Shown here: positions 20,126 to 25,297 of the stretch, piece after piece
Position numbering within the stretch: position 1 is the first letter of the stretch
How the letters are laid out: each line of letters starts with the position of its first letter
NCBI GenBank assembly: GCA_025359785.1
Contig: JANYET010000050.1
Coordinates: forward strand, 62,001-126,000
Length of the DNA stretch: 64,000 nt
From: Alphaproteobacteria bacterium
Lineage (GTDB): Bacteria; Pseudomonadota; Alphaproteobacteria; Caulobacterales; Caulobacteraceae
Direction of reading: 5' to 3'
Made by a program: the position numbers and the translations under genes
The notes under the pieces: model-generated
Told to the model about the DNA's origin: nothing
Seen by the model: the letters and a program-made list of their open reading frames with translations, nothing else
Databases searched by the model: none

Positions 20126-20464
20126 ATGGCCTCACAAGACTTGACCCTCACCCTAAGCCCAGCGGCCGCGCAACGCATCCACGCCATCGGCAAGGCCGAA
20201 GGCCGGGCGCTGATGCTGCGCGTGGCGGTGGAAGGCGGCGGCTGCTCGGGCTTCCAGTACCAGTTTGACCTGGTTGAGGCCGCCCAGCCCGACGACCTGC
20301 GCATCGAGCGCGATGGCGCCGCCGCCCTGGTCGATGAGATGTCCCTGGTCCTGCTGAAGGGTTCGGAGATCGACTTCATCGACGAACTGGCCGGCGCCGA
20401 GTTCCGCATCCGCAATCCCAACGCCAAGACCAGCTGCGGTTGCGGCGTCAGCTTCTCGATCTGA
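20126..20464 (+). CDS. erpA: Iron-sulfur cluster insertion protein ErpA/IscA family
   Basis: A 112-aa A-type Fe-S carrier. The three conserved cysteines are present: VEGGGCSGFQYQF (C near residue 43) and the C-terminal pair in TSCGCGVSF. It delivers Fe-S clusters to apoproteins. It is divergent from dgt, and its 3' end overlaps by 17 nt the convergent HATPase gene. In Rhizobiales-type synteny xthA commonly follows; here xthA appears only at 25890. Confidence 0.94.
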   Translation: MASQDLTLTLSPAAAQRIHAIGKAEGRALMLRVAVEGGGCSGFQYQFDLVEAAQPDDLRIERDGAAALVDEMSLVLLKGSEIDFIDELAGAEFRIRNPNAKTSCGCGVSFSI

Positions 20465-20864
20465 GCCGCAGCCGGTTGCGACCGCGACGGCGGCGGTAGT
20501 CCTCGATCTCGCTCCAGGCCCCGATCAGCGCGATCCCGGCCCCGCCGCCGCGCTCTGGATTCGGGCCGCCATGCTCGGCGTCCCGTGGATCGAAGGCGAT
20601 GCCCGCGTCGGTGAAGGTCAGGCAGACCCGAGATCCGTCTTGCTCCAGCCGCAGGACGATCAGGCTGCCAGCCGGGGCCTGGCCGTGTTCGACGACGTTG
20701 GCCGCCCATTCCTCAACCACCACGGCCAGCCGGTCGGCGGCGTCGTGCGCCAGCCCGGCGTCCTCCGCGAACAGCCGCGCCACCGCCAGCAGCCGCACGA
20801 CTGCGCCCGCGCCTACCGGCGCGCGGACGGTCCTGGCCGGTTGAGAGTGGGCGTTGGCGGCCAG
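20448..20864 (-). CDS. RsbW-like HATPase (serine kinase/anti-sigma type) protein
   Basis: A HATPase_c_2 domain protein of about 117-139 aa. Visible motifs are the N box (EEWAANVVEHG), the G1 region (FTDAGIAFDP) and the G2 box (GGGAGIALIG). Such proteins phosphorylate STAS anti-anti-sigma factors and bind a partner such as a sigma factor. The 5' end is uncertain: no ATG exists between the domain and the divergent fecR-like gene. GTG 20798 clips the first strand of the domain, so I give the limit as CTG 20864. The stop overlaps the erpA 3' end. It is read in the same direction as the STAS-MBL-phosphatase operon but separated from it by the FecR/OmpA pair. Confidence 0.72.
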   Translation of the reverse strand: MAANAHSQPARTVRAPVGAGAVVRLLAVARLFAEDAGLAHDAADRLAVVVEEWAANVVEHGQAPAGSLIVLRLEQDGSRVCLTFTDAGIAFDPRDAEHGGPNPERGGGAGIALIGAWSEIEDYRRRRGRNRLRLRSRS

Positions 20865-20906
20865 CTTTGTTATGACGGTGCGCCTATCGGCTGTGGGGGA
20901 CTTGCG

Positions 20907-21341
20907 ATGTTGAGATCGTTCGCGGCAGGATTGCTGATCGCAGCGGCTGTGTCGACGCAGGCGCTGGCCGCCGACATCGGCCGCATCAAATCGGTCACAG
21001 GCCAGGCCAGCGTCGTGCGCGGGACGAGCGTACTGCCCGCCACGCCCGGCCAGACACTCAGCGTCAAGGATGTGCTCACCACCGGCAAGGACGGCCGCAT
21101 CGGCATCACCTTCGTCGACAACAGCCGGTTCGCGATCGGCCCCAATGCCCATGTGGCCCTGGCCGAATTCGAATTCGACGACACTACCCACAAGGGCGCG
21201 TCGCTAACCCAGGTCGACCGCGGCTCGCTGGCCATCGTTTCCGGCCAGATCGCCAAGGAAAACAAGGACGCCATGAAGGTGCGCACGCCCACCTCCCTGC
21301 TGGCCGCCCGCGGCACCCGCTTCGTGGTCGACGTTCCGTGA
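20907..21341 (+). CDS. FecR-domain periplasmic protein
   Basis: A 144-aa exported protein with a signal peptide (cleavage after ALAAD) and one FecR-like domain: IGRIKSVTGQASVVRG, GQTLSVKDVLTTGKDGRIGITFVDNS and TPTSLLAARGTRFVVDV. FecR domains occur in envelope signal-transfer proteins and frequently beside CHASE2 proteins. Start ATG 20907 has GGGGGA 8 nt upstream; the upstream-open frame is a shadow of the opposite-strand HATPase. It overlaps the OmpA-like gene by 4 nt (GTGA), so the two are probably co-translated. Confidence 0.85.
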   Translation: MLRSFAAGLLIAAAVSTQALAADIGRIKSVTGQASVVRGTSVLPATPGQTLSVKDVLTTGKDGRIGITFVDNSRFAIGPNAHVALAEFEFDDTTHKGASLTQVDRGSLAIVSGQIAKENKDAMKVRTPTSLLAARGTRFVVDVP

Positions 21342-21934
21342 AGGCTCTGGGCTTACGCGGCCTGGCGCTTGCCGCCCTGCTGCCGCTGCTCGCCGCCTGC
21401 GCCTCGGCCGGCGGCTCGGTGACCCTGCTGCCCGGCGAGGCCGGCGCGGGCGTTGGCGCCGTGGCGGTGTTCGATCCCAGGAGCGGCGCCGAACAGGGCG
21501 CGCTCACCGCCGCCAACACCCAGGCCGCGCTCGGTGGCAAGTTCGCGGCCAAGGCGGCCGACCCAAAGCTCTATGCCGCCCTCACCGAGGCCTTGCCGCC
21601 ACCGGTCGCCCACTTCACGCTCTATTTCGTCGAAGGCACGACCAAGCTCACCCCGCAGTCGGAGCCGGAGCTGAAAAAAGTCTTCGCCGAGGTCGCGCGA
21701 CGTGCTGGCGCCGAGGTCCAGATCACCGGCCATACCGACACCGTGGGCTCGGAATATGACAACGACACCCTGTCCCTGAAGCGGGCCCGCGAGATCCGGG
21801 AGGCGCTGATCGCCCAGGGCCTCAACCCGACCATCAGCCGCGCGGTCGGGCGCGGCGAGCGCGAGCTGCTGGTCCAGACCCCGCGGAACACCGCCGAGCC
21901 CCGCAACCGGCGCGTCGAGATCACGGTGCGCTAA
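21338..21934 (+). CDS. OmpA-family lipoprotein
   Basis: A 198-aa lipoprotein. The lipobox LAAC lies near residue 21, followed by a linker and a C-terminal OmpA/MotB peptidoglycan-binding domain (about 92-198) with HFTLYFVEGTTKLTPQS, the TGHTDTVGSEYDNDTLS signature and the terminal NRRVEITV. It should anchor in the outer membrane and hold peptidoglycan. It starts with GTG, overlapping the FecR gene, and its stop overlaps the convergent CHASE2 phosphatase stop by 4 nt with no room for a terminator. The FecR+OmpA pair is likely the periplasmic input of the adjacent signalling genes. Confidence 0.86.
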   Translation: MKALGLRGLALAALLPLLAACASAGGSVTLLPGEAGAGVGAVAVFDPRSGAEQGALTAANTQAALGGKFAAKAADPKLYAALTEALPPPVAHFTLYFVEGTTKLTPQSEPELKKVFAEVARRAGAEVQITGHTDTVGSEYDNDTLSLKRAREIREALIAQGLNPTISRAVGRGERELLVQTPRNTAEPRNRRVEITVR

Positions 21935-23946
21935 CCCGGCCGCCGCACCGCCAGCACGGTCAGGTCGTCGCTGGGGTCCTCGCCGGCCTCGAACACGCGC
22001 ACGGCGGACACCAGGTCCTCGATCAACACCGCCAGCGGCCGGCCAGCGCCGCCTGCCAGCACCGCCATGGCGGCTGCACGCGTAAACAGCGCTCCGGCCG
22101 TATCCTGCGCCTCGGTGACGCCGTCGCTGTAGACCACCAGGGTCTCGCCCGGAGCCAAGCCGTGAATCTCGACGGGATAGGGATAGCTATCGACCACGCA
22201 GAGCGCCGGCCCGCCCTCCAGTTTCAGCTCGCGCACCCCGCCTGAAGCATCGATCAGCAGCGGATTCTCAAAGCCCGCGTTACAAAGCTCCAGCCGCCCG
22301 TCTGTGGTGTCGAGCACCCCGACCAGCAACGAGAGCGCCATCATCTCTCCGTTGTCGTGGCTCAGCTCGGCGTTGATGTTCGCCAGCGCCACGTCGAGGG
22401 CCACGGGCGGCCGCATCAGCAGGCTGCGCGACAAGGCCTTGCCGAGCGCCATGAACAGTGCGGCCGCCAAGCCCTTGCCCGTCACATCGCCGACCAGAAA
22501 GCAGAGCCGGGTCTCGTCGATCATGAAGGCGTCGTAGAGGTCGCCGCCGACCGCCTTGGCCGGATGCACCACCGCATCGACATCGACGCCCTTCGCCAGG
22601 CGGTGCAGCGCCTCGCGGGGCAGCAGCATGCCGGCCTGGATTTCCGCCGCCGCCGAGAGCTCGCCCGCGACCTTGGCCGCCGTCAGCCGCTCCTCGTCCA
22701 GCGCTGCGCGCAGGCGCGCCTGCACCTTGCCGCCCTCGACGAACAGCAGCGCGATCATCGTCCCGGCCGTGGCCACGCCTGGCAGGATCATCGGTCCAGG
22801 GTCGATCAGCGCGCCGGACAGGAAGGCCGCGTAGGCGCCAGAAACCGCCACCGCCGTCAGGCCCAGGGCCGCCGCGACGATCGCTGTGAGCCCCAGGCGC
22901 GGGACCAGCAGCCAGGCGGCGAGCGCGATCAGCAGGCTCAGCGTCCACTCCAGCGGAACCGCCCAGTCCGGGCGGCTCAGCGCAACATCCGCCAGGATGT
23001 CGTTGGCGGCTTCGGCCTGGACCAGCACCCCGAAGGTCTCGCTGAGACGCGGCGTCGTCACCACGTCGGAGGTGCCGGCCGCCGTGAGGCCCACCACCAC
23101 GATCTTGCCCGCGAAATCCCGGCTCGCGCGGCCGCCGCGCAGCAGATCGACCGCCGAGGTGACAGCGGGACCGGCCAGACCTTGAAACCGCAGGGTCATC
23201 CGGCCCTCGGCGTCGACCGGCAGGCGGTGACGGCCCAGCCGCACGGCCTGCAGCCGCCCGCCGTCGCCTTCCAACGCGACCTTGTCCTCGCCCTCCGCGA
23301 TCCGCACCAGTTCCAGCGCGAAGCCCGGCGTGAGCGCGCCGGCCGCGCGGGCGACCAGGGGCACGCGGCGCATGACACCGTCGGGGTCCTTGGGCCCGTT
23401 CACCAGCCCGTGGCCCAGGGCTGCGCCGTCGAGGATCGGCAGGTTGGCCACCACCTCCGGATAGGCGGCGATGCGGTTGGACCGCGGCCCGACAAACTGC
23501 GCTTCCGGCGGCAGGGGCGCGGCCGCGTCCAAGGTGTCGTAGGAGCCCCTGTCCACGCCGGCGCGGGCCAGCACCACCGGGCTGCGGCCGATCACGCGCG
23601 CGAACACAGCGTCCATCGAGGGCAACTTGCGGATTTCGTCAGCGGTCGCGGGCGGCAGTTCCGGATAGAGGCTCGCGAACAGCTGCGGCGTCAGCCGGTC
23701 GGCCTCGGGGAACAGGAAATCGTAGCCGATGACCTTGGCCCCGCGCGCGGCGATCGCCTCGGTCAGCCGGGCCATGGTGTAGCGCGACCAGGGCCAGCCG
23801 CCGACAGCCGCCAGGCTTGGCGCGTCGATCGTCACCACCTGCACCCTCGCCGGCTCCGCCGATTGCGGGGCCATGCGCTGGAAGAGATCGTAGAGCGGCT
23901 GGCGGATCGCCGAACCCGCCGAGAGCACCGCCAGGACCACCGCCAC
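21931..23946 (-). CDS. CHASE2-sensor PP2C (SpoIIE/RsbU-type) phosphatase
   Basis: A 671-aa inner-membrane signalling protein. An N-terminal helix leads into an extracytoplasmic CHASE2 domain (about residues 30-325, with VVTIDAPSLAAVGGWPWSR and GYDFLFPEADR), then three helices (about 330-410), a short coiled linker (ALDEERLTAAKVAGEL) and a PP2C phosphatase (about 450-671) with GGDLYDAF, GDVTGKGLAAALFM, YSDGVTEAQD and DDLTVLAV. Metal-binding aspartates are intact. It should dephosphorylate the STAS protein encoded two genes upstream. The start is GTG 23946; an in-frame extension toward 24000 is possible but has no ATG/GTG. Confidence 0.88.
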   Translation of the reverse strand: MAVVLAVLSAGSAIRQPLYDLFQRMAPQSAEPARVQVVTIDAPSLAAVGGWPWSRYTMARLTEAIAARGAKVIGYDFLFPEADRLTPQLFASLYPELPPATADEIRKLPSMDAVFARVIGRSPVVLARAGVDRGSYDTLDAAAPLPPEAQFVGPRSNRIAAYPEVVANLPILDGAALGHGLVNGPKDPDGVMRRVPLVARAAGALTPGFALELVRIAEGEDKVALEGDGGRLQAVRLGRHRLPVDAEGRMTLRFQGLAGPAVTSAVDLLRGGRASRDFAGKIVVVGLTAAGTSDVVTTPRLSETFGVLVQAEAANDILADVALSRPDWAVPLEWTLSLLIALAAWLLVPRLGLTAIVAAALGLTAVAVSGAYAAFLSGALIDPGPMILPGVATAGTMIALLFVEGGKVQARLRAALDEERLTAAKVAGELSAAAEIQAGMLLPREALHRLAKGVDVDAVVHPAKAVGGDLYDAFMIDETRLCFLVGDVTGKGLAAALFMALGKALSRSLLMRPPVALDVALANINAELSHDNGEMMALSLLVGVLDTTDGRLELCNAGFENPLLIDASGGVRELKLEGGPALCVVDSYPYPVEIHGLAPGETLVVYSDGVTEAQDTAGALFTRAAAMAVLAGGAGRPLAVLIEDLVSAVRVFEAGEDPSDDLTVLAVRRPG

Positions 23947-24002
23947 CGCCGCGACGATCCCGCCCAGCCGGACCCGCCACCGGGCCGAGGGATCGAGCTC
24001 GT

Positions 24003-24965
24003 TCAGACCGTGACCTCGAGACCGTCGTAGGCGCAGAGCACCTCAAGCGCCGGACGGTCGCCGCGCACCAGCTCCTCGTAACGCACGGTCTCGGCGTGCA
24101 TGCGCTGGATATCCTCGTCGGTGTAGCTGGGTTCATGATGGAACAGCGCCAGCCGCTTGGCCTCGGCGGCGTGGCACAGGTCCACGGCCACGATGTTCGA
24201 GGAATGGCCCCAGTCCTGCTTCAGGCTGACGCTGTCGCCCAGCGAATACATGGTGTCGCAGATCACCAGGTCCGCGCCGGCGAAGAAGGCTTCGAACGCG
24301 GCCTCGGCCTCCATGTTGTCGAGCTTGTGCTCGCTGTCGGTCGAATAGATCACCGAGCGGCCATCGCGCTGGAACTGGAAGCCGTAGGACTCGTGGCTGT
24401 GGTGCTGTCGGATCAGGGTCACCGTGACCCCGGCCACCTCAAATGGCTCATTCCGGCCATGGGTCACGAAGCTGATCTTCGCCTTCAGCCAGTCGAAGGG
24501 CACCGGGAAGGAAATCTCCTCCTGCTGGCGGCGCAGCGCCGCCTCGGCGTCCGGATGGCCGGCGTGGATGATAAGGGTCGCGGCAGGGTCGAAGGCCGGT
24601 CCGAAGAACGGAAAGCCCATGATGTGGTCCCAGTGCATGTGGGACAGAAAGATGTGCCAGGTCCGCGCGTGACCCTTTGCGCAGCGCCGCAGCGAATTGA
24701 CCCCGAATTCCCGGGCCCCGGAGCCCAGGTCGCAGACCATGAAGACGTCGTCGCCCCCTTCGATCTCCACGCAGGAGGTCGCCCCGCCGTAGGAGCCATA
24801 GGTCGCGAAATCGAGATTGGCCTCCGCGAAGGCCGCCGCCTCGGCCTCATCGGCGAAGGTCCGGCCACCGGCGGCCACCAGGGCGCGGGCGATCTTGGCC
24901 TGCACCGGCAGCGCCTGTGGCGCGACGGGCAGAGATCCCCGTGTGCCCCAGAAACGCACCAGCAT
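24003..24965 (-). CDS. Metallo-beta-lactamase-fold hydrolase (PhnP-like, COG1235 type)
   Basis: A 320-aa MBL-fold metallo-hydrolase. The N-terminus MLVRFWGTRGSLPV, the metal motif LSHMHWDHIMGFP (HxHxDH, about residues 110-122), YSTDSEH and LFHHEPSYTDEDI match the PhnP-like branch that cleaves cyclic phosphodiesters. No signal peptide. It lies between the STAS gene (TGATG, 1-nt overlap) and the CHASE2 phosphatase in one operon. Placing such an enzyme inside a partner-switching operon suggests it makes or removes a small-molecule signal; that is inference. Confidence 0.85.
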   Translation of the reverse strand: MLVRFWGTRGSLPVAPQALPVQAKIARALVAAGGRTFADEAEAAAFAEANLDFATYGSYGGATSCVEIEGGDDVFMVCDLGSGAREFGVNSLRRCAKGHARTWHIFLSHMHWDHIMGFPFFGPAFDPAATLIIHAGHPDAEAALRRQQEEISFPVPFDWLKAKISFVTHGRNEPFEVAGVTVTLIRQHHSHESYGFQFQRDGRSVIYSTDSEHKLDNMEAEAAFEAFFAGADLVICDTMYSLGDSVSLKQDWGHSSNIVAVDLCHAAEAKRLALFHHEPSYTDEDIQRMHAETVRYEELVRGDRPALEVLCAYDGLEVTV

Positions 24966-25297
24966 CAGGCCACGGAACCCAGGCTGTCGGTCACCTCGAA
25001 CAGCTTGTCGTAGCGGCTGATCGCCAGAATTTCGCGCATCGGCGCGTTGGGGCCGGCCAGGGTGATCTTGACCACCTCGCCCGCCTCCCGCTTGGCCATG
25101 GTCAGCGCCCGCAGGCCCCGGGAGGACATGTAGTCGAGGCCCGAGAGATCGACCACCAGCGGCAGACCGCCGGCGTCGGCCGCGTCACGCACCGCCGAGG
25201 TCAGGGCCTGCGAAAAGGCCTCCCAGGTGGTCTCGTCGACCCGGCCACGCGGCCGCGCGACCAGACGTCCGGCCGACCGCTCAAGCTCCCAATCCAT
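24965..25297 (-). CDS. STAS-domain anti-anti-sigma-like protein
   Basis: A 110-aa single STAS domain, similar to SpoIIAA/RsbV. The key loop reads VVDLSGLDYMSSRGLRAL; Ser59 aligns with the phosphorylated serine of RsbV, while the usual preceding Asp is Ser58. It should cycle between a kinase-phosphorylated form (by the HATPase at 20448) and a form dephosphorylated by the CHASE2/PP2C protein. It is first in the minus-strand operon STAS-MBL-phosphatase, so the promoter should lie at 25298-25400. Confidence 0.86.
   Translation of the reverse strand: MDWELERSAGRLVARPRGRVDETTWEAFSQALTSAVRDAADAGGLPLVVDLSGLDYMSSRGLRALTMAKREAGEVVKITLAGPNAPMREILAISRYDKLFEVTDSLGSVA

Follow-up and report, generated by a model that had tools for sequence, protein, structure and literature searches.

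A conserved six-gene unit that may link an envelope sensor, through a partner switch, to a predicted metallo-phosphodiesterase

Known partner switches and the six-gene unit

Partner switching is mostly known from sigma factors, and kinases resembling RsbW and SpoIIAB usually hold a sigma factor. To our knowledge, direct enzyme outputs of partner switching are few, SiaABCD being one of them, and we know of no FecR, OmpA or CHASE2 protein in that system; SiaA carries a HAMP domain, and SiaB is not a typical RsbW. Here we analysed a 64,000-nucleotide (nt) stretch of contig JANYET010000050.1, the whole of which we refer to as the window, and in it a unit of six genes at 20448..25297. These genes encode an RsbW-like kinase with a HATPase domain (HAT), a FecR-domain protein, an OmpA-domain lipoprotein, a CHASE2-PP2C phosphatase, a hydrolase of the metallo-beta-lactamase (MBL) fold and a STAS protein. 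Judging from the sequences, we lean modestly towards a self-contained, envelope-sensing partner-switching module with an enzyme as its output. The source genome comprises 4.2 Mb in 75 contigs, and among named organisms Phenylobacterium and other Caulobacteraceae are closest to it.

Among described systems, SiaABCD of Pseudomonas aeruginosa offers a likeness in the switch itself. According to PMC7647112 and PMC8457831, a PP2C phosphatase and a kinase set the phosphorylation of SiaC, which resembles an anti-sigma-factor antagonist, and SiaC directly activates the enzyme SiaD, not a sigma factor. By analogy, the present unit may work like SiaABCD despite having another output: SiaD is a diguanylate cyclase and the phosphosite given is Thr68, whereas here we find an MBL hydrolase and Ser59. 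Pfam returned no GGDEF match in the six window proteins, so an output of the SiaD type was not found among them. With RsbU/RsbV/RsbW and SpoIIE/SpoIIAA/SpoIIAB of Bacillus the unit shares three protein families in which key residues are kept, as seen in matches to the Protein Data Bank (PDB), but it differs in lacking a sigma factor, in its transmembrane CHASE2 input and in having an MBL gene in the operon. On the sensory side, clusters of Campylobacterota that combine a CHASE2-adenylate cyclase with a phosphodiesterase, FecR and TPR (PMC9239204) likewise place CHASE2 with FecR and a phosphodiesterase. There, however, CHASE2 sits on the cyclase and no HATPase or STAS protein is named for the cluster, whereas the window CHASE2 is fused to PP2C. 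The BiofilmReg operon of Burkholderia, described in PMC5192318 as LysM-FecR with a CHASE2 histidine kinase and a response regulator, also sets a CHASE2 sensor beside a peptidoglycan-binding partner of the FecR type, but has a two-component output. A first, sequence-only reading of this DNA had called the FecR-CHASE2 pairing recurrent, and these two reports bear this out for other outputs. When the domain names were combined in a search of the open-licence literature, none of the matches listed described the six-gene unit, PMC9239204 coming closest; on this basis we regard the unit as a previously undescribed form of partner switching.

All six genes predicted at this place by the sequence-only reading were present, and in a Pfam scan every expected domain scored above its cut-off. 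The minus strand carries the RsbV/SpoIIAA-like STAS switch protein (24965..25297; STAS_2 PF13466, E 2.7e-11; STAS PF01740, E 2.4e-10), then MBL, a predicted metallo-phosphodiesterase and the proposed output (24003..24965; Lactamase_B_2 PF12706, E 4.5e-17), and then CHASE2-PP2C, a membrane sensor joined to a SpoIIE-type phosphatase (21931 to ~24006; PF05226, E 1.3e-48; PF07228, E 3.3e-41), whose CHASE2 domain has hydrophobic segments on either side. HAT, an RsbW/SpoIIAB-type serine kinase of the HATPase_c_2 family (20448 to ~20873; PF13581, E 1.1e-15), follows on the same strand past a plus-strand FecR-OmpA pair. In this pair, the FecR-domain protein (20907..21341; 144 amino acids; PF04773, E 8.4e-09) starts with MLRSFAAGLLIAAAVSTQALA, a signal-peptide-like N-terminus by which, judged by eye, it would be periplasmic; the OmpA-domain lipoprotein (21338..21934; PF00691, E 1.3e-18) has a GTG start and a lipobox, also identified by eye, of LLAAC. 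STAS and MBL overlap by 1 nt, the convergent stops of CHASE2-PP2C and OmpA by 4 nt, and FecR and OmpA by 4 nt, the last being the coupled overlap reported earlier.

The kinase, the STAS protein and the phosphatase all retain their predicted catalytic residues. HAT, for which RsbW is the closest PDB sequence (profile E 2.2e-11), has the N-box Glu and Asn of a GHKL serine kinase (E52 and N56), and these two residues together with D86, G107 and G110 were invariant in 22/22 aligned homologues. In the STAS protein, which has TM1442 and SpoIIAA among its closest PDB sequences, Ser59 aligns to the first S of the SpoIIAA motif MDSSGL, in agreement with its earlier placement in the key loop; 23 of the 24 proteins aligned have Ser at this position, and the other, L025, has Thr. 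The PP2C metal aspartates had also been called intact, and the motifs GGDLYD, GDVTGKG, SDG and DDLT are all present in the window sequence, each being found by a loose pattern in 32-35 of 36 homologues. The MBL metal ligands (H109, H111, D113, H114, H189, D210 and H277) were invariant in 34/34 proteins.

Conservation of the unit and of its parts

We searched public genomes with the window MBL protein and obtained 40 loci, 28 of which (L011-L038) were of the window type; L050, a remote match (E 5e-5), and L039-L049, a separate clade handled apart, were left out of these 28. Profiles built from the window proteins and their matches were then run on the open reading frames (ORFs) of each locus. 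All six genes occurred together in 21 of the 28 loci, spanning Caulobacteraceae, Sphingomonas, Hyphomicrobiales, Rhodospirillales, Beta- and Gammaproteobacteria and Desulfobacterota, with MBL identity as low as 44% among loci with the unit. The six genes recur as a conserved unit, far above chance. This outcome of the co-occurrence check was strongly positive, yet the distribution is patchy within genus and order: of 36 genomes from the same genus as the window, its own among them, 7 had an MBL of the module type, and 24 genomes from elsewhere in the order had none. The claim that a partner-switching circuit is encoded with a FecR/OmpA/CHASE2 envelope sensor draws support from this joint conservation as well as from gene content.

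The most constant pair of the unit is STAS-MBL. STAS adjoins MBL in 26/28 loci, the exceptions being L034 (contig edge) and L026. CHASE2-PP2C is present in 24/28, counting L032, which has CHASE2 only, at the contig end; it is absent in L023 and L026, and the contigs of L018 and L037 stop too early. FecR with OmpA, and likewise HAT, were found in 23/28, with none of the three nearby in L026 and L030 and with contigs that stop too early in L018, L032 and L037. Gene order is fixed with two kinds of exception: L036 and L038 have HAT upstream of STAS, and L034 has the HAT/FecR/OmpA block inverted; in L015 an additional 1 kb separates the two halves of the unit. The pairing of FecR with OmpA is supported by L025, because there both domains lie in a single ORF (L025:13143-14597), a natural fusion. 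In the betaproteobacterial metagenome-assembled genome (MAG) that contains L030, a second STAS/HAT/PP2C cluster with an OmpA-domain ORF (L030:18602-20940) lies ~5.5 kb from the STAS-MBL-CHASE2-PP2C operon.

The unit was also approached from CHASE2-PP2C. A search of 385 genomes from the class to which the window belongs gave 11 full-length matches in 11 genomes besides the window's own. MBL lay directly upstream in 10/11, and STAS preceded MBL in 9/11. In the tenth case, G253, another contig ends with STAS and the beginning of MBL, and the two contigs look like halves of a single split one. The exception, L088, comes from a genome that is 81% complete and in which only sibling-type MBLs were found. 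FecR and OmpA were adjacent in 5 of the 11 and HAT in 4 (L088 ends on that side), and four long loci (L085-L087 and L091) had STAS-MBL-CHASE2-PP2C with no adjacent HAT, FecR or OmpA. We searched for HAT in five of the genomes lacking an adjacent copy and, as a control, in G252, which has one. Each of the six genomes gave exactly one HAT match (E <= 1e-6), which in G252 was the linked copy. The unlinked gene is divergent from FecR-OmpA in G288 and from FecR in G141 and G255, which belong to one genus; no FecR or OmpA was found in the stretch examined around it in G139 and G339. Because CHASE2-PP2C loci occur without adjacent HAT, FecR and OmpA, and because unlinked HAT can stand beside FecR(-OmpA), the unit has two separable halves, STAS-MBL-CHASE2-PP2C and HAT with FecR(-OmpA). 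In L160 STAS and MBL stand together, and the other four genes were not found within 14 kb (~7 kb downstream, 5 kb upstream). A protein with a cNMP-binding domain (L160:2220-2837) is encoded ~4 kb from that pair.

In its own genome the circuit would be a private kinase-STAS-phosphatase switch, on the basis of one match each for PF01740 STAS, SpoIIE and CHASE2 (the genome-wide STAS search used PF01740 and not PF13466). HATPase_c_2 gave 25 matches, the window HAT scoring best. As candidates for other RsbW-type kinases we scanned the three next-best loci (L095-L097), and these three were rejected: HisKA_2 matched in all of them (in L096 under the cut-off), and they look like histidine kinases.

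The MBL protein as candidate output

The sequence-only reading had called the MBL protein PhnP-like. This proved to be loose, PhnP being one of several distant matches and RNase Z and YhfI lying nearer by fold. The protein scored 18.1 bits against the PhnP equivalog TIGR03307 (cut-off 272), 56.9 bits against the RNase Z equivalog TIGR02651 (cut-off 293) and 46.1 bits against the atypical class-II phosphodiesterase (PDE) equivalog NF041851 (cut-off 400), reaching none of them; an identity as RNase Z or PhnP proper was rejected on these scores. Its AlphaFold2 model (predicted local distance difference test, pLDDT, 87; predicted template modelling score, pTM, 0.86) had YhfI (6kns) as the best Foldseek match, with an E of 4e-14. 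PMC9293780 places YhfI in the atypical class-II PDE group with PF12706 and the motif [T/S]HXHXDH, and the window protein has PF12706 and SHMHWDH, in keeping with that group (Rv1339/YhfI). With Rv1339, YhfI and CpdA as covered there, it shares domain, motif and fold, but it differs from them in its remote sequence, in a two-helix insertion and in having a STAS switch encoded alongside. Together, sequence and model suggest a two-metal phosphodiesterase of the RNase Z/YhfI/atypical class-II PDE group and, because the protein groups there, a cyclic nucleotide is perhaps its likeliest substrate.

The insertion lies at about residues 14-56, with helices at 18-32 and 40-50 in the model. The spacing between the GTRGS and GGxTSC strands was 43-48 residues in 53/53 window-type loci and exactly 11 in 29/29 siblings, the latter being the 28 best matches of a search plus L092. 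This count does not include L037 (MBL split in two frames), L090 (truncated) or L009/L093 and L050 (motif not found); copies were removed (L001-L004, L008, L105 and L161, identical; L010, a copy of L092), and L109 and L110, which encode identical proteins, were counted as two loci. STAS adjoins 40 of the 53 insertion-bearing MBL genes, L016, with STAS 14 bp upstream, being counted among them, and a STAS-like zinc-ribbon ORF adjoins another 7, all of the Oligoflexia type; six have neither neighbour (L026, L034 at its contig edge, L042, L043, L047 and L048). No STAS was found beside any of the 29 siblings within the flank examined, which was <=1.5 kb in most. The association of insertion with STAS is a correlation and not a set of independent trials, as insertion-bearing and sibling MBLs belong to separate clades, and similarity to the window MBL was what brought in most of the 53. 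The zinc-ribbon ORF is only remotely similar to STAS: hhalign gave a probability of 48% and aligned the Ser position. In the separate clade L039-L049, Oligoflexia-type MBL homologues lie beside rpsP-rimM-trmD-like genes (named by eye), and in 7 of the 11 MBL is divergent from a STAS-like protein bearing a C-terminal zinc ribbon.

In L035, from one MAG, STAS and MBL form a single ORF of 515 codons, in which the end of the STAS part, just ahead of the junction, is similar to the tails seen in relatives. Three matches in 369 genomes of another class included no further STAS-MBL fusion; two of them were the genomes of L030 and L033. Fusions of a second kind occur among the siblings, 7 of 29 of which join MBL to a receiver domain at the N- or C-terminus (L092, L112, L114-L116, L123 and L124, all confirmed by Pfam), and in L115 and L116 a histidine kinase adjoins the fused gene. 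These receiver-MBL regulators resemble the window protein in using a sibling MBL as a signalling output, but a receiver replaces STAS and the two-helix insertion is absent. Because sibling MBLs serve as response-regulator outputs, MBL is plausible as an output controlled by STAS. Because, moreover, MBL travels most tightly with STAS (L085-L087, L091 and L160), it is better read as the output, and on balance the sequences lead us to favour the MBL enzyme as the direct output of the switch.

Such a module could work as follows. Periplasmic FecR and the OmpA lipoprotein, which would bind peptidoglycan from the outer membrane, would report the state of the envelope to the periplasmic CHASE2 domain. 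CHASE2 would set the activity of the cytoplasmic PP2C domain, which would dephosphorylate Ser59 of STAS, and HAT, given its conserved catalytic residues, would re-phosphorylate the same residue. Dephosphorylated STAS would then bind MBL, probably through the module-specific insertion, and the altered MBL activity would change the hydrolysis of nucleotide or RNA phosphodiesters. The parts of this scheme differ in strength. That kinase, STAS and phosphatase form a partner switch is very probable from their sequences, and envelope input through FecR, OmpA and CHASE2 is likely. The complete picture, in which FecR/OmpA and CHASE2 act through a private switch to turn the MBL phosphodiesterase on or off by STAS docking on the insertion, as a wide relay and one arm of a class of MBL enzymes run by phospho-signals, is tentative, and we hold it at slightly less than an even chance. 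Several observations weigh against MBL as the output. AlphaFold built both domains of the L035 fusion (STAS blocks at pLDDT 89-98; pTM 0.66) with no confident docking or interface; this model was made from a 15-row alignment, as larger MAFFT alignments appeared, judged from identities and consensus, to put STAS rows on the MBL part. L026 retains MBL, and STAS was not found in its genome, while L023 has no CHASE2-PP2C and keeps the other unit genes.

If the unit were a canonical Rsb-type switch, unphosphorylated STAS would sequester HAT and so free an unlinked HAT target, such as a sigma factor or another regulator, with MBL as an accessory. The resemblance of HAT to RsbW and SpoIIAB speaks for this arrangement, and so does the absence of linkage between HAT and STAS in five genomes, since the target of HAT might then be unlinked too. 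We surveyed 78 of 159 flanking ORFs, picked by hand, which gave 124 families; no sigma-factor family was among the 25 most frequent of these, which include every family found in at least three ORFs (the survey did not extend to the sigma factors encoded in the window's genome). The canonical arrangement also leaves the tight STAS-MBL pairing, the L035 fusion, the insertion and the receiver-MBL siblings without explanation. We regard it as unlikely, and the earlier proposal of an output freed from the HATPase is the less supported one, with no frequent sigma-factor family nearby and MBL tightest with STAS. A different role for MBL would lie upstream or in feedback, where it would tune CHASE2-PP2C or HAT by making or removing a small molecule while the true output lies elsewhere. 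The position of its gene between STAS and CHASE2-PP2C would suit such a role, as would the two class III cyclase matches in the genome and the adenylate cyclase and cAMP phosphodiesterase in the Campylobacterota CHASE2/FecR clusters (PMC9239204). However, the receiver-fused siblings presumably act downstream of phosphorylation, and Pfam shows no nucleotide-binding domain in CHASE2-PP2C and only its own ATPase domain in HAT, so that we consider feedback quite improbable.

Two further explanations concern the nature of the output and the unit as a whole. With MBL retained as the output, the enzyme might process RNA in the manner of RNase Z, and the switch would then control RNA decay or maturation. 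This is a sub-case of the favoured reading, with which its likelihood overlaps, and it is itself unlikely, as the scores stay far under the family cut-offs and Foldseek puts YhfI first. The patchiness within the genus might be taken to mean that the six genes are chance neighbours with no common function. The co-occurrence counts refute this, with the full unit found across Alpha-, Beta- and Gammaproteobacteria and Desulfobacterota and the separated halves still partly together, and we give it next to no weight.

With the MBL enzyme as output, partner switching would act on nucleotide second messengers, or on RNA, in place of transcription initiation, and the MBL substrate would tie the state of the envelope to a second messenger or an RNA process in Caulobacteraceae and Sphingomonads. 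The comparison also suggests a role for a large family of unassigned MBL hydrolases as phosphodiesterase outputs of phospho-signalling, either receiver-fused or STAS-controlled. A conserved sensor-switch-enzyme unit that holds the sole PF01740 STAS and SpoIIE matches of its genome offers a clean system in which to test this.

Start codons and a neighbouring gene

Two of the six genes appear to have unusual starts. HAT has no ATG, GTG or TTG at its conserved N-terminus, the earliest GTG, at 20798, falling within the conserved domain, and its probable start is a non-standard ATA (20873-20871, minus strand). None of these three codons occurred at the HAT N-terminus in any of 8 Caulobacteraceae loci checked (L012 and L020 excluded); the codon there is ATA in seven (window, L011, L013, L015-L017 and L019) and ATC in L014. 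An in-frame ATA also lies 12 nt 5' of the HAT ATG/GTG in 5/6 Sphingomonad loci. The conserved ATA could mark a rare initiation at AUA, or it could belong to a promoter element of the divergently transcribed fecR. CHASE2-PP2C likewise has no ATG, GTG or TTG ahead of its first membrane segment, as is also the case in L011. Its probable start is a CTG (24006-24004, minus strand) that overlaps the MBL stop as CTGA; the codon at this position varies among other Caulobacteraceae. A frameshift fusion of MBL with CHASE2-PP2C was rejected because, in our reading, the relative frame is not constant between loci. Beside the unit, erpA, which encodes an iron-sulfur cluster insertion protein and scored above its NCBIfam cut-off, lies at 20126-20464, convergent with HAT and overlapping it by 17 nt.

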